DNA from: Comamonas testosteroni ATCC 11996
Lineage (GTDB): Bacteria > Pseudomonadota > Gammaproteobacteria > Burkholderiales > Burkholderiaceae_C
Assembly (NCBI RefSeq): GCF_000241525.1
Contig: NZ_AHIL01000017.1
Span: 1-35,463, forward strand
DNA: 35,463 nucleotides
Reading direction: 5' to 3'
A program made the translations under genes and the position numbers. Positions 9,909-24,922 of this stretch are shown in pieces (position 1 is the first letter of the stretch; each line of letters begins with the position of its first letter). The notes under the pieces are model-generated. The model ran no database searches, was not told the DNA's origin, and saw only the letters and a list, made by a program, of their open reading frames with translations.

Positions 9909-9930
9909 TACCAACAAAAGTACCAACAAA
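9909..9930 (+). repeat. Left 22-bp direct repeat, candidate att site of the element
   Basis: A 22-base sequence (TACCAACAAAAG followed by TACCAACAAA) that recurs at 24901-24922 in the same orientation with one mismatch. It contains two tandem TACCAAC half-sites, and an inverted 8-mer TTTGTTGG at 9893-9900 pairs with CCAACAAA at 9911-9918. Such arrays are typical of tyrosine-recombinase core or arm sites. The two copies enclose the integrase and all phage-type genes, so I take this as the distal boundary. The exact crossover point cannot be fixed by eye. Confidence 0.6.
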
Positions 9931-10461: not shown

Positions 10462-11187
10462 ATGCAAGTCACCCCATACGAAGCCGCAAAAGCTGCATTC
10501 CAATCCGCCCTGGCTCAGTTTCAATCGACCCAATCGTCCTATCGTCAGGCTCAAGAAGACCTGCAAGGGCTGATGCAACAGCAGACCTCGCTGCAGGAGA
10601 AACAACAACAGTTTGAAGCGGCTGCCGACGCAGCTGAAAGCGAATTCAAAGAGCTGTTTGCCAAGAGCGGATTCAACGCCACCAAACTGGTGAACGACGC
10701 CATGAACAAGAAGGTGGCCAACAAGGACATGGCCAGCGAAGTCGCCGCAGCTCTGGATCACATTGCCCAGGCGATTCAAGACTTTCCATTCAAGCCTGAA
10801 GTGGCTGCCCTGGCGCAAAGCTACCAGTCCACCCTGGAGGCGGCACGCCGCAAGTACGCCGAAATGATGCTGGCCCAGGCACTGTCCGAAGTGCCGGAAA
10901 GCCTGCTCAAAGCCATTGCGCTGCAGAAATTTATGGCCAAGTCCGACGCCAGAGACTTCAAGGGATTGCTGCCCTTGGCGGATGACCTGAAAGAGATCAA
11001 GGCAAGGGCTATGACCCGCATCTTTGAAGCCATCGACAGCATGCCTGGCCAATGCGATCCAGCGGCTGAATTTGAAGCCGCAGGCATGGCCGTTGGCGGC
11101 GGTGAAGGCCTGCCCACAATCCCGCGCATGTCGCCTGCAGCACTTCACCGCAATCGTGTGCTGAATCCCAAGCATTCATCGCGCTGA
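10462..11187 (+). CDS. Coiled-coil protein, candidate capsid-related (Sid-like position)
   Basis: Encodes 241 residues, mostly alpha-helical. The N-terminal 80 residues are a Gln/Ala-rich coiled coil (SSYRQAQEDLQGLMQQQTSL), the middle is helical, and the C-terminus is Pro/Met-rich and likely disordered. No family is recognised with certainty. Its length and helical make-up are close to P4 Sid (about 244 residues, an external scaffold that makes the helper capsid smaller), and it lies upstream of an Ogr/Delta-like gene, as sid lies beside delta in P4. That parallel is positional and compositional only. It could equally be an unrelated structural or regulatory protein. Codon use is GC-rich and consistent with a real gene. 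Confidence 0.6.
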   Translation: MQVTPYEAAKAAFQSALAQFQSTQSSYRQAQEDLQGLMQQQTSLQEKQQQFEAAADAAESEFKELFAKSGFNATKLVNDAMNKKVANKDMASEVAAALDHIAQAIQDFPFKPEVAALAQSYQSTLEAARRKYAEMMLAQALSEVPESLLKAIALQKFMAKSDARDFKGLLPLADDLKEIKARAMTRIFEAIDSMPGQCDPAAEFEAAGMAVGGGEGLPTIPRMSPAALHRNRVLNPKHSSR

Positions 11188-11262
11188 CCCCTAGCACTGC
11201 TTCGCCGCAATGAGCGGTGCGGCGGGCAGTGCTCCAAGCCTTCAGTCCGCATGCATAGAGCC

Positions 11263-11466
11263 ATGAAAGCACAACCCAATCAGCCGTGCGATGAAAAGCT
11301 TTTGAGAATCGGTGCTGTTATTCAAAAAACCGGAATGGCACGAAGCACTATATACAAAAAAATCCGAAGCAAAGAATTTCCCGCTCCATTAGTTATTGCC
11401 AAACGCTTAGTTGCATGGCGTCAAAGCGATATAAATTCATGGATCAACTCTCTCAATAATCTGTAA
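11263..11466 (+). CDS. AlpA-family regulator / excisionase-like protein
   Basis: Encodes 67 residues from ATG 11263; an in-frame ATG at 11251 would add four. The sequence LLRIGAVIQKTGMARSTIYKKI followed by FPAPLVIAKRLVAWRQSDINSWI is the classic AlpA winged-helix pattern of P4 Vis and CP4-57 AlpA. Such proteins regulate integrase expression or promote excision. Its codons are noticeably more AT-rich than the neighbouring genes. The Ogr/Delta-like gene follows 17 bases later, so both are probably on one transcript. Confidence 0.85.
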   Translation: MKAQPNQPCDEKLLRIGAVIQKTGMARSTIYKKIRSKEFPAPLVIAKRLVAWRQSDINSWINSLNNL

Positions 11467-11483: not shown

Positions 11484-11864
11484 ATGATGTTTAACTGTCC
11501 TCACTGTGGAGCCAAATCCCATTCGCGCACCAGCAGATTTGTATCTGATCTGGTGAGAGATGTTGTGTTTGTCTGCACTGATATTGAATGTGGTCATACG
11601 TTCCTGGCGCAATTGGCTGCAGTTAGAACCATCTCGCCATCGTCAAAACCCCGTGAGGGTATCTTTCTGCCAATGAGTGCACTGAAGCAGAAAATGATCC
11701 GGAATCAAGTTTCCCTGAATAAACAAGATGGCGGAGCCTACTCTATGGTTCTGTGCAAAAGCGCAGAGTACAAGAAATCTGAAAGCAAGCCCAAAGCCCA
11801 TTTCGAGATTCCAGCGCAAGACCCCATCATCAAGGCGCTGCATGGAGCGCCCGCAGCTTCATAG
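11484..11864 (+). CDS. Ogr/Delta-like zinc-finger late-gene activator
   Basis: Encodes 126 residues with a strong ribosome site (GGAGG at 11472-11476, seven bases from the ATG). The N-terminus is a clear Ogr/Delta domain: CPHC, then SRTSRFVSDLVRDVVFVC, then CGHTF, giving a Cys4 zinc site. P2 Ogr and P4 Delta use this fold to turn on the late genes of P2-type phages through host RNA polymerase. P4 Delta has two zinc fingers in tandem; this protein has one, with an 80-residue tail of no recognised family. Its presence next to AlpA and a primase-helicase is the best single hint that the element exploits a P2-like helper phage. Confidence 0.88.
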   Translation: MMFNCPHCGAKSHSRTSRFVSDLVRDVVFVCTDIECGHTFLAQLAAVRTISPSSKPREGIFLPMSALKQKMIRNQVSLNKQDGGAYSMVLCKSAEYKKSESKPKAHFEIPAQDPIIKALHGAPAAS

Positions 11865-11912: not shown

Positions 11913-11972
11913 ACTCCAGCTAGGCCCGCGAACCGAAAAGCGGGAGACCCTGCCCGCCTGCTGGAGTTTTTT
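11913..11972 (+). ncRNA. Structured RNA with terminator, C4-like antisense candidate
   Basis: An outer 8-bp stem ACTCCAGC (11913-11920) / GCTGGAGT (11960-11967) followed by T6 encloses an inner hairpin CCCGC (11925-11929) / GCGGG (11940-11944). This is a terminator of an elaborate, RNA-gene-like kind. The 3' part contains CCTGCTG, complementary to CAGCAGG at 11990-11996, which overlaps the ribosome site (GCAGGG, 11992-11997) of the gene starting at 12003. That geometry resembles C4 antisense RNAs of P1/P7-type phages, which block a downstream gene in the same transcript. The terminator is well supported; the regulatory role is inference. Confidence 0.5.
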
Positions 11973-12002
11973 GCATTCGGGGAATAGCACAGCAGGGCGT
12001 GT

Positions 12003-12721: not shown

Positions 12722-12997
12722 ATGACCGCACAAGCACGCGCCACAACGCACGGCGTGAAGACCCTCACCGCAGCCCAAGCCTTTGAAACGCTTCCCGATT
12801 GCGCATACATCCGCGAACGCGATCTAGTCGCCCATCCGCGCCGCCAAGGCGTGGTGGGGCTGCTGCCGTTTAGCGCCTCTACCTTGTGGCGCAAGGTTAG
12901 TGCTGGAGACTTCCCCAAGCCGCAGAAGCTGGGTGCCAAAATTTCCGCGTGGAGGGTGGCTGATGTCCGTGCCTGGATGGCGCAGCAGCAGGCGTAA
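12722..12997 (+). CDS. AlpA-family phage regulatory protein
   Basis: Encodes 91 residues; a GAGG ribosome site lies just before the ATG. The C-terminal two-thirds match AlpA: LPFSASTLWRKVSAGDFPKP followed by KISAWRVADVRAWMAQQ. The N-terminal extension (LPDCAYIRERDLV) is usual for AlpA proteins of Burkholderiales elements. It stands directly upstream of the RNA leader and replication operon, a natural place for a regulator of that promoter or of excision. This is the second single-domain AlpA-like gene in the element. Confidence 0.88.
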   Translation: MTAQARATTHGVKTLTAAQAFETLPDCAYIRERDLVAHPRRQGVVGLLPFSASTLWRKVSAGDFPKPQKLGAKISAWRVADVRAWMAQQQA

Positions 12998-13170
12998 GGG
13001 GCAGGTCGATGACACAAAAGAAAAACGCCCCAGCCATCCAATCGGACAGCCAGAGCGCGGTAGCAGCGCCCATTCTACTGAGCCAGAAACAGCAGGCCAA
13101 TAGTGCAGTTGTACTGCTGCTGAAAAGAACTCATAGCCCATCGCGGGCCTTCCCATATCACAGCGCTTCA

Positions 13171-13186
13171 TGGCACAATTGCTGCA
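13171..13186 (+). promoter_or_regulatory. Candidate promoter of the replication-operon leader
   Basis: TGGCACAATTGCTGCA lies about 20 bases before the first immunity-like element. It can be read two ways. As a sigma-54 site it has GG and GC separated by exactly ten bases (TGGCAC and CTGCA against TGGCAC and TTGCA). As a sigma-70 site CACAAT is a weak -10 with TTCCCA at 13150-13155 as a weak -35. Either would start transcription just upstream of the leader elements. Confidence 0.35.
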
Positions 13187-13204
13187 AGCCGAGAGGCCCG
13201 GTGC

Positions 13205-13397
13205 TTGAAAACACCTTATTAGTAGCGTTTGCAACCCCCACCGACAAGCGGGGTTTTGTCATGCCCAAATTCTGGGGAATGGTGCGTTTGCATCATCCTT
13301 TTATGGTTACGGGCGGGATGGGCATATCCGTAAGGACTGCCGCACGACTACTGACGTGTTTTCAACATCCCGTCCACCTGTTGCGCTTGAAAACGTG
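13205..13397 (+). ncRNA. P4-type immunity leader RNA candidate (seqA / seqB / seqC)
   Basis: This non-coding leader between the AlpA gene and the replication operon has three matched elements. A (13205-13225) carries TTGAAAACAC then AGTAG; B (13348-13365) carries CTACT then GTGTTTTCAA; C (13387-13397) carries TTGAAAACGTG. B can pair with A over 10 plus 5 bp, and with C over 11 contiguous pairs including two G-U. B is the 3' side of the loop of a hairpin whose stem is GGGCGGGATG (13311-13320) / CATCCCGTCC (13366-13375); a GNRA-capped hairpin TCC-GTAA-GGA sits at 13327-13336. In phage P4 a small CI RNA carrying seqB pairs with flanking seqA and seqC to end transcription early and keep the satellite silent. 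The same layout here suggests the same mechanism. Confidence 0.6.
13233..13257 (+). terminator. Terminator or attenuator hairpin inside the leader
   Basis: The stem AACCCC / GGGGTT with T4 after it lies between elements A and B of the leader. In P4 immunity, premature termination happens within the leader, so this hairpin is a natural candidate for the site. The stem is short (about six pairs), so termination may be conditional. Confidence 0.5.
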
Positions 13398-13434
13398 GCA
13401 AGTGGCTTCCTGTGCTCCAGTAGGAAAGCAGACC

Positions 13435-13650
13435 ATGACCGTTATCACCCTGGCCAGCCGCAGCGCTGCGTCCGCATCGCCCCTCACGGGCACACCTGAC
13501 CCCATCCAACTGCACGCCGATGCGCATAACGCGCTCAGCATGGCGCTGCACTATCTCAGCCAGCCCAAGGCCAATGTTCCCGGTGCACGCCGCAAAGCCG
13601 TGCAGGCTCTGGCCGCTCTGCGTGGCCTCGATCTGAGCCTGGAGGGCTAA
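13435..13650 (+). CDS. Small hypothetical protein, first gene of the replication operon
   Basis: Encodes 71 residues from ATG 13435, with AGGAAAG as ribosome site. The open frame reaches back to 13009 but that part overlaps the structured leader and I regard it as non-coding. The protein has a polar N-terminus and a helical C-terminus (ADAHNALSMALHYLSQPKAN and AVQALAALRGLDLSLE). No family recognised. It precedes the next gene by three bases, starting a tightly packed plus-strand operon that runs to the helicase. In P4 a small regulatory ORF also occupies this place ahead of the replication gene. Confidence 0.6.
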   Translation: MTVITLASRSAASASPLTGTPDPIQLHADAHNALSMALHYLSQPKANVPGARRKAVQALAALRGLDLSLEG

Positions 13651-13653
13651 CCC

Positions 13654-14154
13654 ATGAAAACCCATCACAGCGCTGCCAAAGGGGCAGTGGAAGCTGCTGC
13701 ATTGTCTGGTGCATCCACAAGAGCAAGCGCCGCGCGCCAAAGCACGCAGCGCACCGCGAAGCCTCGCGATGTCTTTGACTGCATTGCTGCAGGTATTCCG
13801 CGTGCGGATTGGGAGTTGGCACTGGACACCGATGCGGCCAAGCAATGGAGTAACTGGCTGGGTGAGGATCTGCCTGTATCTGACACCTTGAAAGAGGCCG
13901 CTCAAGCGCAGCTCAAAACCAAAATGCTGAACCTCCGCGATGAGGTAGGGCATCTGGATGCTGCCCGCTCTGCATTGAACGCGGTGGCCACCATGACGGA
14001 TGAATGCGCCTTTCATGTGGGCCCCACTTTGGGCGTGCCTGCAAAGGACATGGCCAATCTGTTGCGCGTGGTGCATGCCGAGTTGGAGCGCCGTACGCAG
14101 GAGATTTGCAGCGCCGTCAATGAGGTGAGCATGGTCTGGAGGGTCAAAGCATGA
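13654..14154 (+). CDS. Hypothetical protein of the replication operon
   Basis: Encodes 166 residues with a disordered, Ala/Ser/Thr/Lys-rich N-terminus (about residues 1-35) and a helical body (SDTLKEAAQAQLKTKMLNLRD, DMANLLRVVHAELERRTQEI). No known domain recognised. It is joined to its neighbours by a three-base gap upstream and an ATGA overlap downstream, which implies translational coupling and a role connected with replication, immunity or DNA binding. Codon use matches the flanking genes, so it is very likely real. Confidence 0.7.
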   Translation: MKTHHSAAKGAVEAAALSGASTRASAARQSTQRTAKPRDVFDCIAAGIPRADWELALDTDAAKQWSNWLGEDLPVSDTLKEAAQAQLKTKMLNLRDEVGHLDAARSALNAVATMTDECAFHVGPTLGVPAKDMANLLRVVHAELERRTQEICSAVNEVSMVWRVKA

Positions 14155-14816
14155 ATGCCCTGCACCAGCCCTCTTTTAAGCGCCCGGCTGCGCCTGCTGT
14201 AGCCGATATTGCAACCGCCGTGATGAATGGCGTTCAGTGTCTGGATACCTCCGGGCTTGCCGCTTTGCTGGGTTGCGCCCCGCATCATGTGCGCCACCAT
14301 TTGGGCCATCGTCTTGACTTCCCCGCGCCGTTCATCGATCTGAGCCCGCGCCTGCGTTACTGGCGGGTCATCGACGTGTTGCAGTGGCTGTATCAGCCCG
14401 GCATGCGTGCCTTGAGCGTGGCAGACCTGGGGGCACCGCGGCTTGATGTCGGAGGCATTGCCGACTTGCTGGGTTGCTCACGCCAGCACGCCACTGCTGT
14501 GATTGCCAAGCGCAAAGACTTCCCCCCGCCGTGCATCAACGTCAGCAACCGCATGCGCACTTGGCTTTACCGGGATGTGCTGGCTTGGCTGGCCCCGCAG
14601 GGGGGCGAGTTTGGCAGCGGTGGCCACACTGCAGCCCCGGCGATTGTGGATGCCGATGGCGTGGCGCAAATGTTGGGTTGCACACGAGAGCATTTCACCG
14701 ACCGTCTGCTCAGGCAGGCCGGTTTTCCGCAGCCTTTTTTGTATGCCAGCCGCCGCCTGCGTTGGTGGCGTGTGAGTGATGTCCTGGCATGGCAGCAGAA
14801 AGGCGGTGCAGCATGA
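14151..14816 (+). CDS. Protein with three tandem AlpA-like DNA-binding domains
   Basis: Encodes 221 residues built from three repeats of one winged-helix-like unit, at about residues 31-82, 98-149 and 166-216. Each has the same order: LDTSGLAALLGCAPHHV / LDVGGIADLLGCSRQHA / VDADGVAQMLGCTREHF (helix-turn-helix), then a DFPAPF / DFPPPC / GFPQPF turn, then YWRVIDVLQWL / TWLYRDVLAWL / WWRVSDVLAWQ. Single units of this kind make up AlpA and excisionase proteins. Three fused copies would bind an array of spaced sites, for instance the GTAATC repeats at 18377-18637. It overlaps the genes on both sides (ATGA), including the primase gene. Its function as origin binder, excisionase or regulator is inference; the repeat structure is plain in the sequence. 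Confidence 0.8.
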   Translation: MNALHQPSFKRPAAPAVADIATAVMNGVQCLDTSGLAALLGCAPHHVRHHLGHRLDFPAPFIDLSPRLRYWRVIDVLQWLYQPGMRALSVADLGAPRLDVGGIADLLGCSRQHATAVIAKRKDFPPPCINVSNRMRTWLYRDVLAWLAPQGGEFGSGGHTAAPAIVDADGVAQMLGCTREHFTDRLLRQAGFPQPFLYASRRLRWWRVSDVLAWQQKGGAA

Positions 14817-15907
14817 GTGATTTGCTTCATGAAATCGCCCAGCGGTTGCAGTCGGACTATGAGTTCAAGCCTGCATCCGATGGCAAGCATTTGCGCAAGG
14901 GCCGCTGCCCTGGCTGCGATCACAAAAGCCTGTGGACTTACGCTGCCACGCCTTGGGTGGTGAAGTGCGAGCGGCTTAACCATTGCGGGTATGAGGCCCA
15001 CGCCAAAGACCTGTATAGCGATCTGTTTGAGAGCTGGAGCGAGCGCGCCCGCATGGCCGAAGAACGCAAGCCCGAAGCCGAGCGCAATCCGCACGCGGCT
15101 GCAGATGCGTATCTGCAGCAGGCCCGTGGCTTCGACTTGACGCGGATTCGTGGTCTGTACTCGCAGGAGCAATACTTTGACCAGCGCGCTGACCGGGGGC
15201 GCGGTGCAGGCACGGCCACGGTGCGCTTTGCTGTGGCCCAGACATGGTGGGAGCGCTTGATTGATAAGCCCGCGCGCTTTGGCAAGAAGAAGGCCAATTT
15301 CAAGCAGGGAGGGAGTTACGGTGGTCACTGGTGGGCCATGCCTGATCTGAGCTTTGCAGCACCGAATCCGGCCCAGCCTGAGGCCCCTGAGCCACCTAAG
15401 GAGCTGTGGCTGGTGGAAGGCATTTTTGATGCCATCGCGCTGGCCCATCACGGCATTGCAGCCGTCGCCCTGATGAGCTGCAACAACTACCCAGGCAAGG
15501 CCTTGGAGGCAGTTCGCGCGCAGATACAGCGCGAGGGCCAACAGGTGAAGGAGCCGCGCTTGGTGTTTGCGCTTGATAGTGACAAGGCCGGGCGGGATTA
15601 CACCCTGCGCCATGTGCGCAGGGCGCAGGAGGCTGGGTGGCGTTGCACAGCGGCGCAAATCCCGCAGCGCAGCGGCAGCGCCAAGCAGGATTGGAATGAC
15701 CTGCATTTGCGCGAGCTCCTGACGGAAAAAGACCTCAAGGAGTATCTGCATCAAGGTGCGCTGCTGGTGGCCGAGTCTGCCTCCGACAAGGCGCTGTTGA
15801 TCTACAACCACACGGGCCGCGCTGAGTTCGACTTGGAATATGGCAGCCGTCTGTATTGGTTCAAGCTCGATCTGGCCGCTTACAGCAAGGCCAAGGATGA
15901 CTTGTAA
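14813..15907 (+). CDS. Toprim primase, N-terminal part of a split primase-helicase
   Basis: Encodes 364 residues from ATG 14813, overlapping the previous stop by four bases. The N-terminus carries a zinc motif with Cys32, Cys35, Cys52 and Cys58 (RCPGCDHKSLW, VVKCERLNHCGY), as in phage primases. The Toprim domain follows with the Glu at 202 (WLVEGIFDAIAL) and the DxD at 255-257 (FALDSDKAGRD). The frame meets a TAA at 15905-15907 but continues without a shift for another 561 codons into the helicase half. A single change of CAA to TAA would explain this, and the joined protein (about 926 residues) has the domain order expected for a satellite primase-helicase such as the P4 alpha class. The truncated product may still make primers. 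Confidence 0.85.
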   Translation: MSDLLHEIAQRLQSDYEFKPASDGKHLRKGRCPGCDHKSLWTYAATPWVVKCERLNHCGYEAHAKDLYSDLFESWSERARMAEERKPEAERNPHAAADAYLQQARGFDLTRIRGLYSQEQYFDQRADRGRGAGTATVRFAVAQTWWERLIDKPARFGKKKANFKQGGSYGGHWWAMPDLSFAAPNPAQPEAPEPPKELWLVEGIFDAIALAHHGIAAVALMSCNNYPGKALEAVRAQIQREGQQVKEPRLVFALDSDKAGRDYTLRHVRRAQEAGWRCTAAQIPQRSGSAKQDWNDLHLRELLTEKDLKEYLHQGALLVAESASDKALLIYNHTGRAEFDLEYGSRLYWFKLDLAAYSKAKDDL

Positions 15908-15979: not shown

Positions 15980-17593
15980 GTGCTGCAGCCTATTGCCAAT
16001 TGCTTGCCCAAAGCGCTGTACTACCAGCGCAATGAGGTGACGCAGGAGGCTTGGTATTACTTCAGCATTGCCCAGCCGCATAAAAGCCTGCCCGTCAAAG
16101 GTAACTTCACAGCAGGCCATCTGACCTCGGCCAGCGAGTTCAAAAAGCAGCTGCTGCACCTGGCACCCGGAGCCTTGTATAGCGGCAGCAGCGCCCAGCT
16201 TGAGCGCATGATGCAACGCCAACTGGACAACATCAAAGAAGTGCAGACGGTGGATTTTGTGGGCTACAGCGCCCAGCACAAAACCTATCTGTTGGGCGAC
16301 TATGCGGTGCACGATGGCGCGGTGCTGGAGGCCAACGAAGAGGACTATTTCGAGATTGGAAAGCTCAGCATCAAAAGCCTGCAGCGCTCTATTCATCTGC
16401 ACATCAGCCGCGATGCAGAAGCCCAGGACAGAAGCTGGCAACAGCACCTCTGGTCAGCCTTTGGTGCTCCTGGCTATGTGGCTCTAAGCTACTGGTTTGC
16501 CAGTCTGTTTGCAGAGCAGATTCGGGCTGAGCAAATGTCGTTTCCGTTCCTGGAAATCGTGGGCGAGCCCGGCAGCGGCAAGACGACCTTGATCCAGTTT
16601 TTGTGGAAGCTGTTTGGCCGGGACTATGAGGGCTTCGACCCCAGCAAGTCCACGGCCGCTGGGCGTATGCGCACGTTCACGCAGGTCAGCAATCTGCCCA
16701 TTGTGCTGATCGAGAGCGACCGCGAAACCAAGACCGGCAACAGCGCCCATGTGAAAAGCTTTGATTGGGACGAGCTCAAGGACGCCTACAACGGCCGCAA
16801 TGTGCGCACCACTGGCGTGCGCACTGGTGGCAATGAGACCTATGACCCGCCGTTCAGGGCCAGCATTGTCATCAGCCAGAACAACCCTGTGCAGGCCAGC
16901 CAAGCCATCATGGAGCGCATCTGCCATATGACATTCACCACGCATGGCCACACGCCTGCCAGCTTTGAAAGTGCCAAGAAGCTGGAGACTTATGAGATGG
17001 AGCAACTGAGCGGCTTTCTGCTGGCCTGCCTACGCCAGGAATCTCAGGTACTCGACACCTTCAAGGCAGAAGCCGACAAGACCATTGCATGGTTGCTGCA
17101 GCAGGACGGCATTCACAAGCCGCGTATTGCCAAGAACCATGCACAGCTGCTGGTGGCCGTCATGGCCATGAGCCGGCTCATGCGTATGAGCGATGGGCAG
17201 TTTGATGCTGTGCGCTCATGCATCGTGGCCATGGCCCAGGAGCGGCAGCGGTCCATCAGTGCCGATCATCCTCTGGTGCAAGAGTTCTGGGAGATGTTCG
17301 ATTTCCTCGACAGCCTTCCGACCGAGGCGGTGAGAGGCACATTGCATGTACCGCGCCTGAATCACAGCCGGGACAAGCAGCTCATTGCCGTGAACCTGAA
17401 CGAGTTTGTAGAGCAGGCCAGCGTGCACCGCCAGCAAGTGCCTCCGCTGGCCGAGCTCAAGAAGGTGCTGCGCACCAGCAAAGCGCGCCGCTTTGTGGAC
17501 TCCAGCCGTGTCATCAACAGCGCAATCAAGACCCGTAATGCAGACGATGACCAGGGCAAGGCGGTGCGCTGCTGGGTGTTTGAGTTGGCCTGA
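15980..17593 (+). CDS. Helicase half of the split primase-helicase
   Basis: Encodes 537 residues from the GTG at 15980, in the same frame as the primase half; coding-like sequence begins directly after the TAA (KGQEEGDKYLSEHELREKAI). The ATPase has Walker A GEPGSGKTT near 16562-16588 and a later acidic segment (LPIVLIESDRET), with a downstream NP segment (IVISQNNPVQ) typical of phage-type AAA/SF3-like helicases. Whether it is translated is unclear. An AG-rich stretch after the stop (AGGAAGAAGGGG) could act as a ribosome site, but the nearest conventional start, GTG 15980, is too far from it. Reinitiation, readthrough or loss are all possible. Confidence 0.75.
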   Translation: MLQPIANCLPKALYYQRNEVTQEAWYYFSIAQPHKSLPVKGNFTAGHLTSASEFKKQLLHLAPGALYSGSSAQLERMMQRQLDNIKEVQTVDFVGYSAQHKTYLLGDYAVHDGAVLEANEEDYFEIGKLSIKSLQRSIHLHISRDAEAQDRSWQQHLWSAFGAPGYVALSYWFASLFAEQIRAEQMSFPFLEIVGEPGSGKTTLIQFLWKLFGRDYEGFDPSKSTAAGRMRTFTQVSNLPIVLIESDRETKTGNSAHVKSFDWDELKDAYNGRNVRTTGVRTGGNETYDPPFRASIVISQNNPVQASQAIMERICHMTFTTHGHTPASFESAKKLETYEMEQLSGFLLACLRQESQVLDTFKAEADKTIAWLLQQDGIHKPRIAKNHAQLLVAVMAMSRLMRMSDGQFDAVRSCIVAMAQERQRSISADHPLVQEFWEMFDFLDSLPTEAVRGTLHVPRLNHSRDKQLIAVNLNEFVEQASVHRQQVPPLAELKKVLRTSKARRFVDSSRVINSAIKTRNADDDQGKAVRCWVFELA

Positions 17594-17632: not shown

Positions 17633-18226
17633 ATGACGCAAAACACTCATCTAACGGTGCTGGATGCACCAGCTCCGATGCTGGAGGCCCACAGCGGGCA
17701 GGTGATGGCCACCAGTTTGCAAGTGGCAGAGCATTTTGGGAAACGTCATGCGGATGTGATTCGAGCGGTCCGCAACTTGGGATGCTCGCCCGAATTCACT
17801 GAACGCAATTTTGCGCTCAGTGAATTTGTTGATGGTTCTGGCCGAAGCCTTCCAATGTTCCATATCACCCGCGATGGCTTTGCCATGCTGGCCATGGGCT
17901 TTACCGGCAAGGAAGCTATGCGCTGGAAAGAGGCCTACATCACCAGCTTCAACGCGATGGAGGCAAAGCTAAGGGCCCTGTATGTGGAGCCACTAGTCAG
18001 CGACAAGGCGTTTCGTCAAACCATCTCTCTGCGAGATAAGCTTACACTGCAGGAGCAGAGCCATCGGATTGCTATCAAAATAAAAGCGGAATCAGATTCA
18101 ACTGCCCGGCGCAATCTCTACTGGCAACTGCGCCAAGTCAACGATGCGCTGGGTATTCCTACGGAGAGCGCGGCCCGTTTGCTGGGTGCTGATGCGATTT
18201 TTCCAGTTCAAGAAACCGAGTATTGA
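17633..18226 (+). CDS. Rha-family phage regulatory protein
   Basis: Encodes 197 residues with a strong ribosome site (GGGGAGG) seven bases from the ATG. The N-terminal domain matches the pRha family: VMATSLQVAEHFGKRHADVI, then the conserved middle with FHITRDGFAMLAMGFTGKEA and ITSFNAMEAKLR. Rha proteins occur in lambdoid and P22-like phages and in satellites, where they affect growth in hosts lacking IHF; the C-terminal part varies and here is a helical, charged region (QEQSHRIAIKIKAESDSTAR). It lies 39 bases after the helicase gene and just before the putative origin, followed by a terminator. Confidence 0.85.
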   Translation: MTQNTHLTVLDAPAPMLEAHSGQVMATSLQVAEHFGKRHADVIRAVRNLGCSPEFTERNFALSEFVDGSGRSLPMFHITRDGFAMLAMGFTGKEAMRWKEAYITSFNAMEAKLRALYVEPLVSDKAFRQTISLRDKLTLQEQSHRIAIKIKAESDSTARRNLYWQLRQVNDALGIPTESAARLLGADAIFPVQETEY

Positions 18227-19131: not shown

Positions 19132-21549
19132 CTACGTAGGCTTCACGGCGGGCTCAATGAATATGGCTAAGCGCACCGGTGCCACGTCTTCAGTGCGCCC
19201 GAATGTCAGTACCAGTCGTGAAACATCTGTGCGCCGGAATCCTCCCGTTGGTGCGGACGCTCGTACGTCGTAGATCATCAATCCTTCATCCTCTGTTCCT
19301 GGCGCTGCGTCAGCAGTCGCCTGCACAGAACTGACTTCGAGCTCTTCACCCTGACGCAATGCCCTAAACGCGGTTCTAAGAAGCAGCCCGGCGGCGTCGG
19401 CTCCCGCTGGCTTGGACACATGGTGGTAGGTTAGGCTTGGGAGCTTGAAATGTAGTGCGTCTATCTGTCGAATGATGGCAGCTGCATTTGAATCTGGTTC
19501 ATAGACGTGCACTTCGTCCGATAAGTGAAGTCGCCTCCATTGCGTGTCAGAGTTGGTGTACACAAAAGCGCCGGTCAAGGTAGCAACGAACAGACCGGTC
19601 TCTCGTGCAAAAGCCTTCGTGATCTTGAACTCTCCCTCAAAATCGTCGGAGATGGGCGTCAGCAAAGCCAGAGGGTCCTGCTCTGCCTCTTGTTTCCAGT
19701 GCGCTATGACAGAGTCAATATCAGCATCGGAAAGCTCATCGGAGCCGTTGGGGATGCGTTCCTTGATGTAAGCCTTCATTCGCTCCGTTGGCAGGCGCTT
19801 CAGGAGTCGCAGCTCTTCGTCCTGTGCCAAGAAACGCACCATCGCATCGTCAATAGGGCCAATCTCTATGTTCTCTTTGCGATCCGTGATGGCCTTGATC
19901 TCCTCACGATAACCAAGATCGAAATCCAACGGATCTGGGACGAGGTGAATCCGTCCTGCCTCAATGGCGTGTTCAAGGACCAGAAGCGTAAATGCGTTGC
20001 GAACGGTCTGCTCGCGATGTTTTGCCGGCTGATGAATCGGGCTGAGCTCCTTGCGCACCGTATCGGCGTTCATGAAAGGATGGACCACGACCAGTTCGTC
20101 TACATACGCCAACATGCCGGTGATTGACTCCGAAAGGAATCGCGGGTCGATCGAGCCCATGAAAAGCGCGCGAGAGCGTCGGCGCTGAGGGCTCGGAAGA
20201 AGGTCAATCAGTTGCGTGTCTCTGGGCCAGAGCGCTGCTTGAACCTTGTGTATGCGGATGACCTGTTCATCGCTGAGTGTGCGCCGCATGCGTAGCCATG
20301 AAGCGTCCGAGTCGTCCAACTCCAAGATGTTCTTTATGGCGCGAATCAAGGCGAGATTGCGTTCCCTGATGCTCATGACGCGCCAAGACGGGCGTAGATG
20401 CGGCTCAATGTCCGCGCAGCATTCCCTGAAGTTCAGCCCGCCCCCGCATCCACATGGATCCTCCGGGTGCGGGCTCAAGATTGGCTGAGGTTTGGCGGTC
20501 AATTCGTGAGCCTTCGATGTGCGGCCGAATTGGTCTCTGTAGGCAGTCGAGCCGTCGGCGTAGCCAATAAACACTTCGCCGCCAAACTTGAAAAGCCCAT
20601 CGCGGGGCAGAAGGATCGGCGCGATTTCTGCCCATGACAGGCTGCAGTAGCGCTCGGGATAGAGCCATTCAGGCCTACCTGCAGCGACGTACTGCTTGGC
20701 TCGTGACCGCAGCACAAGATTAATGGCATGCACTTCGACGTCTGTGAGCTGGCGTTCGCGAATCAAGGCGTCCGTGTGAGCCATCGAGCTACCACGAAAT
20801 CGAGCGTTGGTGCGACGAGCCAAATGATCAGCATTGGCAGGGTTTTCGGCGTATTCGAGGTTGGTCAGAATCAGGCAGTGATTGGCATCTAGCGCAAAGA
20901 TGGTCTGCGTCCCCACCATCTGAACTCCTGGCTCATTGGGGTACTGGCATCCTTTCGAGTCGGGCGCCATCTTCGGATTGAAGACTGTGACCGGATGGTC
21001 GCTAACCAAGAATTTGACGGTTGCCTTAGAGGCTGAAACGATTTCCCGCACGCATTCGGACCACATCGTGCAATGCATTTGGCGCAATGCCTGCATCTGC
21101 AGCATCAGGTCAAGCTGTGGCAGCCCGTTGTAGTGCTTCAGGATCCAGTCAAGACCCTTAGGCGTTCGCAACTTCTGAGCGTCTAGATAGCCGAAAAAGT
21201 CCTGAAACCTTCGATGGATCTGAGCTTGATTTCCTGATATCCATCCACGAATAGCGTCTGCCCCGGTCTTGTCGATGGGGCCGAAGACGAACGTCTCGAT
21301 ATCGTCGTTTAGGGTCGGGCCAAATCGTGTCGTGTATAGGTCTAGCTCAACGAAGGCCAGCTTTGGCCCTAGTTCTTCGACTTCGGGCTCAGCAAGGGTC
21401 TGCCCGTTAGGCAGGCTGTTGACACCCGGTTGGAGGTTTCGCACGTACAGCTTGTGCCTGCCTTTGGGCATGAATCCACGCTGATACCACTGCGGAACGT
21501 AGTGGTTGTCGCGCGTGACCTGCTTCTCTTTGTTTTTCGGTTGGTGCAT
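19132..21549 (-). CDS. Large DUF4238 / SEC-C cargo protein
   Basis: Encodes 805 residues, read on the minus strand against the satellite genes. The N-terminus has the DUF4238 signature RDNHYVPQWYQRGF (about residues 13-26), followed by a region with FLVSDHPVTVFNP as in that family. Near residues 365-380 is a SEC-C zinc motif (PCGCGGGLNFRECC). The rest, more than 400 residues, is unrecognised; it has LLPSPQRRRSRALFMGSIDP and an acidic C-terminal domain. DUF4238 proteins are often found in mobile-element cargo and defence neighbourhoods, but their activity is not established. Its place between the origin and the integrase is the cargo position in P4-like satellites. It is long, intact and isolated, and likely works alone. 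Confidence 0.75.
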   Translation of the reverse strand: MHQPKNKEKQVTRDNHYVPQWYQRGFMPKGRHKLYVRNLQPGVNSLPNGQTLAEPEVEELGPKLAFVELDLYTTRFGPTLNDDIETFVFGPIDKTGADAIRGWISGNQAQIHRRFQDFFGYLDAQKLRTPKGLDWILKHYNGLPQLDLMLQMQALRQMHCTMWSECVREIVSASKATVKFLVSDHPVTVFNPKMAPDSKGCQYPNEPGVQMVGTQTIFALDANHCLILTNLEYAENPANADHLARRTNARFRGSSMAHTDALIRERQLTDVEVHAINLVLRSRAKQYVAAGRPEWLYPERYCSLSWAEIAPILLPRDGLFKFGGEVFIGYADGSTAYRDQFGRTSKAHELTAKPQPILSPHPEDPCGCGGGLNFRECCADIEPHLRPSWRVMSIRERNLALIRAIKNILELDDSDASWLRMRRTLSDEQVIRIHKVQAALWPRDTQLIDLLPSPQRRRSRALFMGSIDPRFLSESITGMLAYVDELVVVHPFMNADTVRKELSPIHQPAKHREQTVRNAFTLLVLEHAIEAGRIHLVPDPLDFDLGYREEIKAITDRKENIEIGPIDDAMVRFLAQDEELRLLKRLPTERMKAYIKERIPNGSDELSDADIDSVIAHWKQEAEQDPLALLTPISDDFEGEFKITKAFARETGLFVATLTGAFVYTNSDTQWRRLHLSDEVHVYEPDSNAAAIIRQIDALHFKLPSLTYHHVSKPAGADAAGLLLRTAFRALRQGEELEVSSVQATADAAPGTEDEGLMIYDVRASAPTGGFRRTDVSRLVLTFGRTEDVAPVRLAIFIEPAVKPT

Positions 21550-22385: not shown

Positions 22386-22865
22386 ATGACAAATCCAATT
22401 GATGCCGCAGCATGGTTCATTAACCACGTTGATCGTGATAGCGGCGACTCTATGACGCCGCTTAAGCTGCAAAAGCTTCTTTATTACGCGCAAGCGTGGC
22501 ACTTGCTAGCGTTTGATAGGCCTCTTTTTCAAGAGGACATGCAGGCTTGGGCCCATGGACCAGTGGTGCCAAGCGTCTATCACGAGTTCAAGGAATATGG
22601 CTTTAACTCGATTCCGGAATACCATGGGGCCGACGAAATCGATGCCGATTCCGAGGGTATCTTGGCTCAGGTTGCTGACATTTACGGTGAGTTCTCAGCG
22701 AAGCGTCTTGAAGCGATGACCCATATGGAAGATCCCTGGAAGGACGCCAGAAGAGGACTAGCCCCAGAGGCTCGTTGTGAGGCTGTTATCTCCAAAGATG
22801 CCATCAAAGCCTATTTTCAACGGACATATGGTGAGATGACGGATGGCCAAGACGCAGCTGCCTAG
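22386..22865 (+). CDS. Panacea-domain (DUF4065 / SocA-like) antitoxin
   Basis: Encodes 159 residues with ribosome site AAGGGAG just before the ATG. The N-terminus shows the DUF4065 signature: DAAAWFINHVDRDSG, then MTPLKLQKLLYYAQAWHLL and AWAHGPVVPSVYHEFKEYG. This domain, now called Panacea, serves as the antitoxin in many toxin-antitoxin pairs with unrelated toxins, and as SocA-like adaptors. It overlaps the next gene by 23 bases, the tight arrangement expected of a toxin-antitoxin operon. The antitoxin role is from family knowledge and context; neutralisation has not been tested. Confidence 0.88.
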   Translation: MTNPIDAAAWFINHVDRDSGDSMTPLKLQKLLYYAQAWHLLAFDRPLFQEDMQAWAHGPVVPSVYHEFKEYGFNSIPEYHGADEIDADSEGILAQVADIYGEFSAKRLEAMTHMEDPWKDARRGLAPEARCEAVISKDAIKAYFQRTYGEMTDGQDAAA

Positions 22866-23334
22866 AGAAAAGATCCAAGCAAAAGCTAAGGCAACACTTC
22901 AGCTAAGCGAACGCGATAACCAGATTTTTGCTATCGCCGAAAGTGCTGATGTGCAAGGTGGTGACAATGCTAACCCTTACATCGCGCTCAAATATTTTCG
23001 GGATGCATACGAGTGTTTTTCTCATTGGGAGAAAGATGAACTCAAAGCCTTCACTGAGCTGATTAACGATCTTCGCAATAGGACTTGGAAGCAGGTTCTT
23101 CAAACGAGCGGCAAACGTGATAAGCGTGGGCTTGCGTATACACCCTACGACCCTGTCAAGACTGCCGAAGCCGCAAAGACTCATCTAGAGTCGGTCCGTG
23201 ACCAAATTTCCCCAGACATCACTTTTTTTGAACTACGCGTCGATCAGAATAAGTTGAGAGTTCATGGATTCCGAGCCCGTGCTGCTTTCTTTCTGGTGCT
23301 TCTAGATCGAGAGCACCGCGTCTTTCCGTCGTAG
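22843..23334 (+). CDS. Putative toxin partner of the Panacea antitoxin
   Basis: Encodes 163 residues, starting inside the end of the Panacea gene. The N-terminal two-thirds are helical and charged (LSERDNQIFAIAESADVQGG, KYFRDAYECFSHWEKDELKA). The C-terminus ends in beta-strand-like segments FFELRVDQNKLRVHGFRARA and AFFLVLLDREHRVFP, whose pattern recalls RelE/HigB-like mRNA interferases. I do not recognise a named family with confidence. Overlap with a Panacea antitoxin makes a toxin the most likely role. The 279 bases that follow (23335-23613) contain nothing I can support. Confidence 0.72.
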   Translation: MAKTQLPREKIQAKAKATLQLSERDNQIFAIAESADVQGGDNANPYIALKYFRDAYECFSHWEKDELKAFTELINDLRNRTWKQVLQTSGKRDKRGLAYTPYDPVKTAEAAKTHLESVRDQISPDITFFELRVDQNKLRVHGFRARAAFFLVLLDREHRVFPS

Positions 23335-23613: not shown

Positions 23614-24849
23614 CTATGCCTGCCTGAACTGGATCACTTCGGCCCCGTGGCGCAGTGTTTCGAGATAGTCAGCCCATTGCTGCAAAACTTTTGCGCGCTC
23701 ATCGACGAAAGTAGCTCGGTCATAGGCACCGTTATGGGTCTTGCCACCCACGTGGGCTAGTTGAGCCTCGATCACGTCAATGTCGATCTTGAATACCTCG
23801 CGCAGCAGGGTGCGGCCAGTCGCACGGTAGCCATGCCAAGTGTGAATGTCCTTGTAGCCCATTGCGTGCAAAGCCGCATTGACGGCAGCTTCGCTCATGG
23901 GTTTGGCGTGGTCTCGGAGGCCTGGAAAGACATACTCGCGACCCGCTGTCACGGGATACAGCTTGCGTATGGCCACAACGGCTTGCCGGGGCAATGGAAC
24001 TTTGTGCGGCGCGCCGTTCTTCTTCCCCTCGACATTGCGTTTGAGGTCAGCGCTGGGGATAGTCCAGAGCCCTGCATCAAGGTCTAGATCAGCCCAGCGC
24101 ATGGTGCGTAGGTTGCCGGGGCGCTGGAACAGTATGGGGGCTATGTAGAGCGCTGTCCGCACCACAGGGCCGCCGCCATAGCCATCGCTGGCGCGCAGCA
24201 GTTCGCCCAGCTTGGCTGGGTCGGTGATGGCTGGGAAATGGCCCTTCTGGCGTGGTTTGAGGGCTTTCTTGATGTCCTGGGCAATGTCCCGTGTGGCGCA
24301 GCCTCTGGCGATTGCGTATTGCCAGACTCCTGATGCCGTGGTGAGCAGCCGGTGCGCGCTTTCCACTGCGTCGCGGTCTTGTACGCGCTCACATGCTCTC
24401 AACAATTCAGGCGGCTCAACTTCTCCAATCACACGCTGACCAAGAAAAGGGTACAGGTCTTTCTCCAGGCTTCGGGCTTCGCGGTCGTAGTGTGTCGTTG
24501 ACCATCCTGGCCGCTTGTTTGCCAGATAAGCGCGGGACATGGCTTCCACGGTGTTGAGCGCTGCCACCGCCTTGTCTTCTTTGAGGCGCTGCTTGTTCTG
24601 GCTGGGGTCTACGCCTTGCGCAAGCAGGGCGCGGGCATCGTCACGGCCACGTCGGGCTTGGGCGAGGGTGATAGCGGGATACACGCCGAGCGCCAGTGTC
24701 TTTTGTTTGCCCTCGAAGCGATAGGCCAACCGCCAATACTTGCCCGCCGCTTTGACGTGCAGGTACAGCCCACCACCATCGCTGTGTTTGTCGCCAGCTG
24801 CTTTGCCGCTGTGCTTGGTGTTTTTGATGAACGTATCGGTCAGTGCCAT
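23614..24849 (-). CDS. P4-type tyrosine recombinase (integrase)
   Basis: Encodes 411 residues. The N-terminus is the DUF4102 arm-binding domain of P4 integrases (DGGGLYLHVKAAGKYWRLAY, LALGVYPAITLAQAR). The catalytic domain has the first Arg in LFQRPGNLRTMRWADLDLD, the HxxR box HGYRATGRT (His about 339, Arg about 342), LAHVGG, and the nucleophile Tyr at about 376 in GAYDRATF. It is complete and should catalyse integration and, with an AlpA-like factor, excision. It reads inward from the right boundary repeat, 51 bases away, the standard arrangement for this class, and next to tRNA-Ser. Confidence 0.95.
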   Translation of the reverse strand: MALTDTFIKNTKHSGKAAGDKHSDGGGLYLHVKAAGKYWRLAYRFEGKQKTLALGVYPAITLAQARRGRDDARALLAQGVDPSQNKQRLKEDKAVAALNTVEAMSRAYLANKRPGWSTTHYDREARSLEKDLYPFLGQRVIGEVEPPELLRACERVQDRDAVESAHRLLTTASGVWQYAIARGCATRDIAQDIKKALKPRQKGHFPAITDPAKLGELLRASDGYGGGPVVRTALYIAPILFQRPGNLRTMRWADLDLDAGLWTIPSADLKRNVEGKKNGAPHKVPLPRQAVVAIRKLYPVTAGREYVFPGLRDHAKPMSEAAVNAALHAMGYKDIHTWHGYRATGRTLLREVFKIDIDVIEAQLAHVGGKTHNGAYDRATFVDERAKVLQQWADYLETLRHGAEVIQFRQA

Positions 24850-24870: not shown

Positions 24871-24922
24871 GTTGGTATCTGATTTTGGCTCTGATTGAGC
24901 TACCAACGAAAGTACCAACAAA
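24871..24922 (+). repeat. Right direct repeat and inverted arm site, candidate att
   Basis: The 22 bases at 24901-24922 match 9909-9930 with one change (21 of 22). An inverted GTTGGTA at 24871-24877 faces TACCAAC at 24901-24907. Both ends of the element thus carry TACCAAC half-sites in tandem plus an opposed copy. It lies 46 bases from the tRNA terminator and more than 100 from the tRNA gene, so insertion appears to be next to, not within, the tRNA. Confidence 0.6.

Follow-up and report, generated by a model that had tools for sequence, protein, structure and literature searches.

A predicted C4/P4-CI-type antisense immunity RNA in the leader of a putative satellite replication operon in Comamonas testosteroni

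Contig NZ_AHIL01000017.1 of Comamonas testosteroni ATCC 11996 (RefSeq assembly GCF_000241525.1) carries, between a gene for an AlpA-family regulator and a primase operon, a leader (positions 13171–13434) whose complementary segments raise the question of whether it works as the P4 immunity region does. An earlier reading made from the letters alone (the sequence-only reading) proposed that a central segment, B, pairs with both an upstream segment, A, and a downstream segment, C, as in the P4 CI RNA, and placed the leader, correctly, ahead of a replication operon. We analysed the whole 35,463-nt stretch (the window, in whose positions all coordinates are given) together with related leaders. 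With a probability of roughly 0.88, the leader encodes a short, trans-acting antisense RNA of the C4/P4-CI type that would silence the replication operon of a P4-like satellite and give immunity. The support consists of four complementary pairs of segments, their covariation across related loci, the predicted fold of B, the AlpA-primase position, and the recurrence of this plan in P4 and the small RNA (sRNA) family sRNA-Xcc1. Published work is cited by PubMed Central accession, in each case for what excerpts of its text state.

Segments A, B and C are present where the sequence-only reading placed them. In order, B comprises an outer stem, a hairpin capped by a GNRA loop, a second hairpin, a single-stranded segment, the closing stem and CCACC. 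We refer to the loop segment of the second hairpin as b' and to the single-stranded segment as a'; the b' hairpin has an 8-nt loop with one isolated predicted pair inside it, and the first bases of a' also belong to its stem. Positions 13300–13385 fold as had been described for a hairpin containing B, at a predicted −34 kcal/mol (z = −3.5; none of 200 shuffles equally stable). R1, a model built from 17 sequences of the short class of RNAs to which B belongs, scores B at 91.5 bits (the window's own sequence is in the model) and the next-best match in the window at 12.6 bits. The predicted fold and the alignment and structure of R1 show the architecture of the C4 antisense RNA, in which an outer stem encloses a pair of hairpins, with b' in a loop and a' unpaired.

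Both segments find a partner on either side of B (Table 1). Bases 13356–13365 of a' (GTGTTTTCAA) form 10 bp with 13205–13214 (TTGAAAACAC) in a1, and bases 13355–13365 form 11 bp, including two G-U pairs, with 13387–13397 (TTGAAAACGTG), that is, a2. The b' loop (13348–13354) forms 7 bp, one of them G-U, with 13219–13225 (b1), and its bases 13348–13353 form 6 bp with CAGTAG at 13418–13423 (b2), a site that overlaps the Shine-Dalgarno (SD) sequence of the open reading frame (ORF) starting at 13435. The sequence-only reading had B pairing with A by 10 plus 5 bp and with C by 11 bp with two wobbles. The 10 bp and the 11 bp were recovered as the two a' helices; the 5 bp became the 7 bp of the b'-b1 helix, and b2 had been missed.

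Short repeats of this kind could be a product of chance or a functionless relic. When the flanks were dinucleotide-shuffled in 2000 trials, the observed value was reached 10 times for a' with A, once for a' with C, 287 times for b' with b1 and 140 times for b' with b2; the sum of the four helices was never reached. At this single locus, the a' matches lie beyond chance. Taken by themselves, the b' matches can be equalled by shuffled flanks, as the chance explanation would have it, and are settled only by comparing loci.

Whole genomes supplied some of the related loci, and pattern scans run on genome and viral contigs supplied the others. In 84,980 species genomes the pattern picked out 62 stretches; one record is named to phylum only, and the remainder are Burkholderiales by record title and taxonomy (Comamonas, Delftia, Acidovorax, Hydrogenophaga, Malikia, Ottowia and others). 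The same kind of scan of viral contigs gave 15 stretches. Five loci with short flanks were dropped, and 66 distinct leaders with enough flank, the window's included, were compared. Helices were counted from 6 bp for b and 7 bp for a upward, and partners were permuted among loci 10,000 times; orphan copies of the RNA (described below) were counted as ordinary loci, here and in the 113-locus set introduced later. A leader's own b-b1 helix was present in 64 of 66 cases (permuted mean 30.9, maximum 44), b-b2 in 63 (11.8, 22), a-a1 in 64 (22.9, 37) and a-a2 in 58 (18.6, 32). Moreover, b pairs by 6 bp or more inside a 16-nt window on the SD sequence in 58 of 62 loci (permuted mean 7.8, maximum 18; four of the 66 loci lacking a recognised SD and start were left out), and in 54 of those 62 the b-b2 helix takes in 2 nt or more of the SD sequence.

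Because related loci can inflate a permutation test, we also compared sister pairs, taken as disjoint closest pairs by leader identity with the variable part of B masked. Among 23 pairs differing in b, the own combination was better than the swapped one upstream in 21 (2 ties) and downstream in 19 (4 ties); among 21 pairs differing in a, it was better upstream in all 21 and downstream in 20 (1 tie). The reverse never occurred, and one orphan pair, without targets, sits in this count as a tie. The sequence-only reading had proposed covariance analysis across related elements, in which A, B and C should vary together, and had named loss of the complementarity in homologous leaders as one result that would count against it. 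The covariation exists, and the complementarity is conserved (58–64 of 66 leaders, against permuted means of 12–31). Covariation across these 66 leaders and the 113 further loci exceeds 5000 or 10,000 permutations, with the sister pairs in agreement; the chance explanation is refuted as far as sequence allows, and we give it next to no weight.

A rival scheme has b' and a' act on translation only, blocking the ribosome-binding site of the first ORF, with the upstream matches acting as decoys or in titration and not as a termination switch. The retention of b-b2 in 63 and a-a2 in 58 of the 66 leaders agrees with this, as does a terminator-like hairpin in just 41. Yet a1 and b1 are kept equally well (64 of 66 each) and change with a' and b' in the sister pairs, and pairing of the P4 CI RNA with seqA and seqC is reported to cause transcription termination (PMC4825925). 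We regard this scheme as unlikely, though it is the strongest of the competing explanations.

P4 itself supports the reading as a C4/P4-CI-type RNA. The P4 order is ORF88, the cI region and an operon ending with alpha, so that the RNA lies behind ORF88, where the window has an AlpA gene, and ahead of the primase (alpha) operon; ORF88 is recorded as 'put. DNA-binding', and we take it to be AlpA-like. Rfam identifies the P4 RNA as C4 (RF01695, 74.9 bits) and, in the upstream part, isrK plus c4-a1b1 just below its cut-off. With the same helix scoring, b forms 8 bp upstream and 9 bp downstream, and a forms 7 bp on each side; the downstream sites lie 4 and 35 nt behind the RNA match, offsets nearly equal to those in the window, and b2 lies over an AGGA. 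P4 and the window therefore share a1, b1, a terminator, the RNA, a2 and b2 over the SD sequence, in the same order. They differ behind b1, where the hairpin of P4 leads into seven T and that of the window into a weak T run. The proposed P4 plan stood up in this comparison, except that it had counted two target sites where there are four (a1, b1, a2 and b2).

C4 antisense RNA is a stable product of ~77 nt made by RNase P processing, and the C4 RNAs of P1 and P7 offer a second comparison. There, b' covers ribosome-binding sites and a' determines specificity, which a few base changes alter (PMC5320573); C4 binds the ant mRNA around the ribosome-binding site and gives heteroimmunity (PMC12197685). 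Pairing of the b' segment over a ribosome-binding site is likewise seen at b2 in the window, whereas C4 silences an antirepressor and the window operon encodes a primase behind an RNA that the C4 model does not find. The group 1 C4-like sRNAs of Acinetobacter baumannii occur in many copies per genome with variable a', and superinfection is one of two roles considered for them (PMC5320573). They are prior art for the immunity idea, and they were found through the Rfam C4 motif, unlike the RNA described here. Finally, the int-alpA RNA (RF02996) lies in the same element as B but is a separate RNA.

The best Rfam match of B is sRNA-Xcc1 (RF02221), with 35.2 bits over 13312–13382 (E 2e-4; cut-off 53). 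Short-class RNAs of relatives score 34–39 bits against RF02221, and R1 scores RF02221 members at 38–41 bits. Because detection runs in both directions below the cut-off, RF02221-type RNAs were tested for the same plan. Other Rfam matches were rejected: a nadA riboswitch at 13358–13394 (22 bits; cut-off 37.5) is the B-C complementarity read as a stem, and ctRNA_p42d, NsiR1 and Six3os1_1, found in 13000–13650 up to E 10, are chance scores.

A core-pattern scan of viral contigs, together with relatives, gave at least 121 distinct RF02221-type loci; 113 with the outer stem were used, eight without it and three with short flanks being dropped. In these 113 loci, among the matches listed, complementarity to the own flanks exceeds permuted partners with z = 11.6 upstream and z = 15.0 downstream (0 of 5000 permutations each). 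Twenty loci without a recognised SD and start were left out of the SD test; in 89 of the remaining 93 the RNA pairs with the SD sequence (permuted mean 39.4, maximum 54), the high permuted mean reflecting the long segment used (30 nt). An even class sample searched with RF02221 at E 1e-3 gave matches in 27 of 370 genomes (10 over the cut-off) and in none of 14 control genomes. Of its 42 places, we examined the 29 with a fetched locus, omitting one short-class locus, and 28 were usable (one had a short flank). In these 28 loci, which were not chosen by pattern, the own value was reached by 1 of 10,000 permutations upstream and 13 of 10,000 downstream, and the own score was above the average of the other loci in 20 cases upstream and 24 downstream, not in all.

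The genes behind the RNAs differ between the two groups. ORFs were obtained from 88 of the 113 and 49 of the 66 loci (those under 50 amino acids (aa) omitted, the rest trimmed to 150 aa). Among the matches listed, the 88 ORFs behind RF02221-type RNAs include pRha (13), KilA-N (9), P22_AR_N (7), ORF6N (7), AntA (6), Bro-N (5) and P22_AR_C (2), a tally in which one protein may count twice. The 49 behind short-class RNAs include pRha once and nine other families with one member each, with no prevalence of antirepressors. Four named phages carry an RNA over the RF02221 cut-off. It precedes a gene annotated as antirepressor in Bordetella phage IFTN1 and Escherichia Rac-SA53, precedes a hypothetical gene in Moraxella phage Mcat15, and in Smp131 overlaps the 5' part of an annotated anti-repressor gene, three genes ahead of a primase gene. 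In Rac-SA53 (L291), the sRNA-Xcc1-family RNA stands before ant of a Rac prophage; a query with this leader matches 158 of 5426 E. coli genomes, 30 of them over at least 80% of the query. One viral contig (L190) carries two sRNA-Xcc1-type RNAs at a spacing of ~530 nt, and on visual inspection the ORF behind each of them resembles AntA.

The sRNA-Xcc1 RNAs therefore share the architecture, target plan and flank covariation of B; they differ in length (~87 nt against 72) and in that many members precede antirepressor-type genes. We conclude that sRNA-Xcc1 is very probably the same kind of RNA as the predicted C4/CI-type immunity RNA of the window. Rfam assigns C4 to clan CL00128 and sRNA-Xcc1 to none in the cmscan output. 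One paper, PMC12189769, was found to contain both names, in a single table, and its excerpted text does not join them; tentatively, the searches made among open-licence papers turned up none that does. In Xanthomonas campestris, sRNA-Xcc1 gave one northern band of ~100 nt, with mapped ends 88 nt apart and many predicted host targets (PMC2996969); the band indicates that a member of the family exists as a discrete RNA. Xylella Temecula1 has seven copies, five of them clustered in a genomic island (PMC12189769), and the most widespread Xanthomonas integron cassette carries sRNA-Xcc1 upstream of symE (PMC12444791).

On the published view of sRNA-Xcc1, B could instead be a host-directed sRNA, a regulator of virulence or stress, and the flank matches would be secondary. 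The predicted host targets of sRNA-Xcc1 (PMC2996969), together with control by HrpG/HrpX and carriage on integron cassettes (PMC12444791), are the grounds for such a view. The variable segments, by contrast, track the flanking sites of their own element and not a fixed host sequence, and the RNAs sit in phages and satellites directly before antirepressor-type or replication genes. A host-directed role for B is very improbable.

How might the predicted immunity RNA be made and act? The best −10-like hexamer sits 25–32 nt 5' of the a1 hairpin in 46 of 56 scored leaders (of the 66 loci, 61 have the GGTG hairpin and 56 of those have enough flank), with a mean score of 5.29 against 4.07 in shuffled flanks. 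A good −35 is not seen for the window leader, where TTCCCA matches 4 of 6 positions, and a consensus promoter scan lists no promoter there. A possible terminator between A and B had been suggested, and the hairpin at 13233–13259 with its weak T run answers to it; hairpins of this kind were found in shuffled leaders with a mean of 6.3 and a maximum of 11, against the 41 given above. A stricter terminator scan omits 13233–13259 and lists 13279–13296 instead.

From the pairing plan we infer that B is processed to a free RNA and acts in trans, that it stops transcription early and blocks translation, and that it thereby gives immunity. Excision from the leader transcript would yield B as a stable RNA. 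While the resident element is quiet, its B would pair with a1 and b1 of nascent leaders and favour a stop at the hairpin behind b1. In transcripts that read through, it would pair with a2 and b2, blocking translation of the first ORF and leaving the operon open to polar termination. The resident B would also silence a newcomer that shares its a' and b', and not one with another a' and b'; together, a' and b' would form an immunity code. The B of the window has the same a' and the same b' core as locus L003 and differs from L113 in both segments, and G028:C70 and G061:C5 share the b' core but have another a'.

Copies of the RNA without targets bear on action in trans. A search with R1 found 59 copies, RF02221-type copies included, in 25 of 53 genomes of the genus (which in the taxonomy used includes Comamonas and Delftia). 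Four of them are orphans that lack the a1 and a2 sites. Those in L271 (G061:C31) and in L276 and L287 (G006:C14 and C50) lie ~600 nt upstream of a complete leader; that in L284 (G061:C4) lies near a contig end. By eye, the L271 and L287 orphans keep a promoter-like TATCAT and the stretch adjoining B, have lost the part with A and the terminator, and have a terminator-like hairpin of their own behind B, and the L276 and L284 orphans have a different upstream sequence. The four copies carry three distinct specificities. One of these is also the predominant specificity among the elements of other genomes: a G061 orphan shares both a' and b' with complete elements of G006 and G036 but with no complete copy in its own genome, which could reflect copying from a sister element. 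The orphan of G061:C31 equals the leader of G006:C50 in a' and b', and its neighbouring leader has the same a' and a different b'. The other two have no complete partner among the 59 genus copies. Copies without targets of their own fit action in trans.

The orphans also bear on the possibility that the leader is a cis-acting attenuator, in which A-B and B-C pairing are mutually exclusive folds of one transcript that set termination, with no free RNA acting in trans. Every site does lie within one transcript, and A-B pairing dominates the predicted fold of 13200–13440 (−85.4 kcal/mol; 4 of 200 shuffles equally stable). To a cis device, the 4 of 59 genus copies that have B without a1 and a2 would be useless; b2, over the SD sequence, pairs with a loop segment, as reported for C4 (PMC5320573); and the relative sRNA-Xcc1 is discrete on northern blots (PMC2996969). 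We consider such an attenuator improbable.

Several observations weigh against an immunity RNA of the C4/P4-CI type. RF02221 matches B only under the cut-off, and the Rfam C4 and c4-2 models give no match in 13000–13650 up to E 10, so the plan is shared with P4 and the sequence is not. The T run behind the A-B hairpin is weak, and some leaders lack such a hairpin. The genome pattern demanded YGTGTT, part of the b' hairpin stem adjoining a', which under-samples the variety of a'. In the fixed windows, the 7-bp a-a2 helix is missing in 8 of 66 leaders, b2 in 3, b1 in 2 and a1 in 2. Here L111 and one L106 copy are orphans, the upstream part is gone from L110, the a1 of L067 falls outside the fixed window, and neither downstream site is present in the two leaders from Hydrogenophaga (L065 and L099). 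Own scores fall within the top 5% of other-type partners in 23 (b upstream), 13 (b downstream), 47 (a upstream) and 29 (a downstream) of the 66 leaders and, in the RF02221-type set, within the top 5% in 21 (upstream) and 32 (downstream) of the 113 loci listed. With matches this short, few loci are unique when taken singly, and the argument is carried by the whole set of leaders together with the sister pairs. Finally, avoidance of equal specificities within one genome is suggestive and not significant: identical pairs number 0 of 107 (permuted mean 0.80; 859 of 2000 permutations as low) and, in three Delftia genomes, 0 of 98 (2.29; 302 of 5000), a comparison confounded by shared integration sites and descent.

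The surrounding element, ~15 kb between its candidate ends, is read as a P4-like satellite. It contains the gene set of such satellites (integrase, Psu-like, Ogr/Delta, AlpA and primase) in the order Psu-like, AlpA, Ogr/Delta, int-alpA RNA, AlpA, leader, replication operon, Rha and integrase. The 71-aa first ORF has no family in Pfam, PHROGs or PADLOC, and relatives carry similar ORFs in its place. The primase family phrog_1139 is spread over two ORFs of the operon. The ends are candidates only: among 53 genomes, no match fully spans the joined attachment site, and the best matches among relatives to the 154-base joined-site query start at position 54 or later or cover the left or middle part only. 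The leader DNA has no similarity match in the plasmid and phage collections. Two further regions may be cargo. An ORF at 22843–23334 with a weak PADLOC match to NsnC (E 3e-8) adjoins a SocA/Panacea-domain ORF (22386–22865), possibly as defence or toxin-antitoxin cargo of the satellite, and an 805-aa ORF with DUF4238 on the minus strand (19132–21549), which has no PHROG or PADLOC match, is likely satellite cargo as well.

Table 1. Positions of the predicted immunity RNA, its pairing sites and neighbouring features in the window.
Feature	Position	Strand	Evidence or remark
Candidate attachment repeat, left	9917–9930	+	AAAGTACCAACAAA; 14-bp direct repeat with 24909–24922
Psu-like protein	10462–11187	+	phrog_6165, E 5e-9
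AlpA-family regulator	11251–11466	+	PF05930
Ogr/Delta zinc-finger activator	11484–11864	+	PF04606
int-alpA RNA	11913–11982	+	RF02996, 57.5 bits, over cut-off; flanked by Ogr/Delta and a 206-aa ORF
AlpA-family regulator upstream of the leader	12722–12997	+	PF05930; position of ORF88 on the P4 map
−10-like hexamer CACAAT, likely leader promoter	13174–13179	+	Conserved position before the a1 hairpin
a1 target hairpin GGTG..CACC	13200–13215	+	Pairing part 13205–13214 = site A
b1 target site	13219–13225	+	TTAGTAG; 7 bp with b'
Terminator-like hairpin between A and B	13233–13259	+	AACCCC/GGGGTT, then TTGT; weak T run
B RNA, predicted antisense immunity RNA	13312–13383	+	RF02221 sub-threshold match, R1 model match, fold
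b' loop, predicted specificity segment 1	13348–13354	+	CTACTGA; 46 distinct b cores across 66 loci
a', predicted specificity segment 2	13355–13365	+	15 distinct a cores across 66 loci
a2 target site = site C	13387–13397	+	11 bp with a'
b2 target site (13418–13423) overlapping SD AGGA (13422–13425)	13418–13425	+	6 bp with b'
71-aa ORF, first gene 3' of the leader, predicted direct target	13435–13650	+	Start 9 nt behind SD
Operon ORF	13654–14154	+	
Operon ORF	14151–14816	+	Helix-turn-helix match
Primase N-terminal part, Toprim	14789–15907	+	phrog_1139 positions 3–339
Second ORF matching the primase family	15980–17593	+	phrog_1139 positions 364–888
Rha-type regulator	17633–18226	+	PF09669, phrog_995
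Tyrosine integrase	23614–24849	−	PF13356, PF22022, PF00589
Candidate attachment repeat, right, just upstream of integrase	24909–24922	+	14-bp direct repeat

Four points are new in this analysis: the b' loop pairs with the SD site, the helices covary across loci, sRNA-Xcc1 is likely the same kind of RNA, and copies exist that are orphans. Taken further, the C4/CI-type RNAs, the whole sRNA-Xcc1 family included, may form one large coded immunity system of proteobacterial phages and satellites, with a' and b' as the code and target-less copies as portable immunity cassettes against the antirepressor or replication genes of competing elements. We hold this wider view tentatively, at somewhat less than even confidence. 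The Delftia orphans seen here would be examples of such cassettes, and, by the same reasoning applied to excerpts of published papers, so would the Xanthomonas integron sRNA-Xcc1 and the five-copy array of Xylella. If this is true, RNA immunity would be carried against someone else's element. The leader itself already offers a readable immunity code, by which the mutual exclusion of satellites or phages could be predicted from sequence alone. The analysis also offers a concrete function for sRNA-Xcc1, which the papers treat as an integron-borne virulence regulator or a vesicle sRNA. The Rac leader in E. coli may provide a convenient laboratory model, and with the orphan copies one could ask directly whether elements and integrons are equipped with RNA immunity to competitors.
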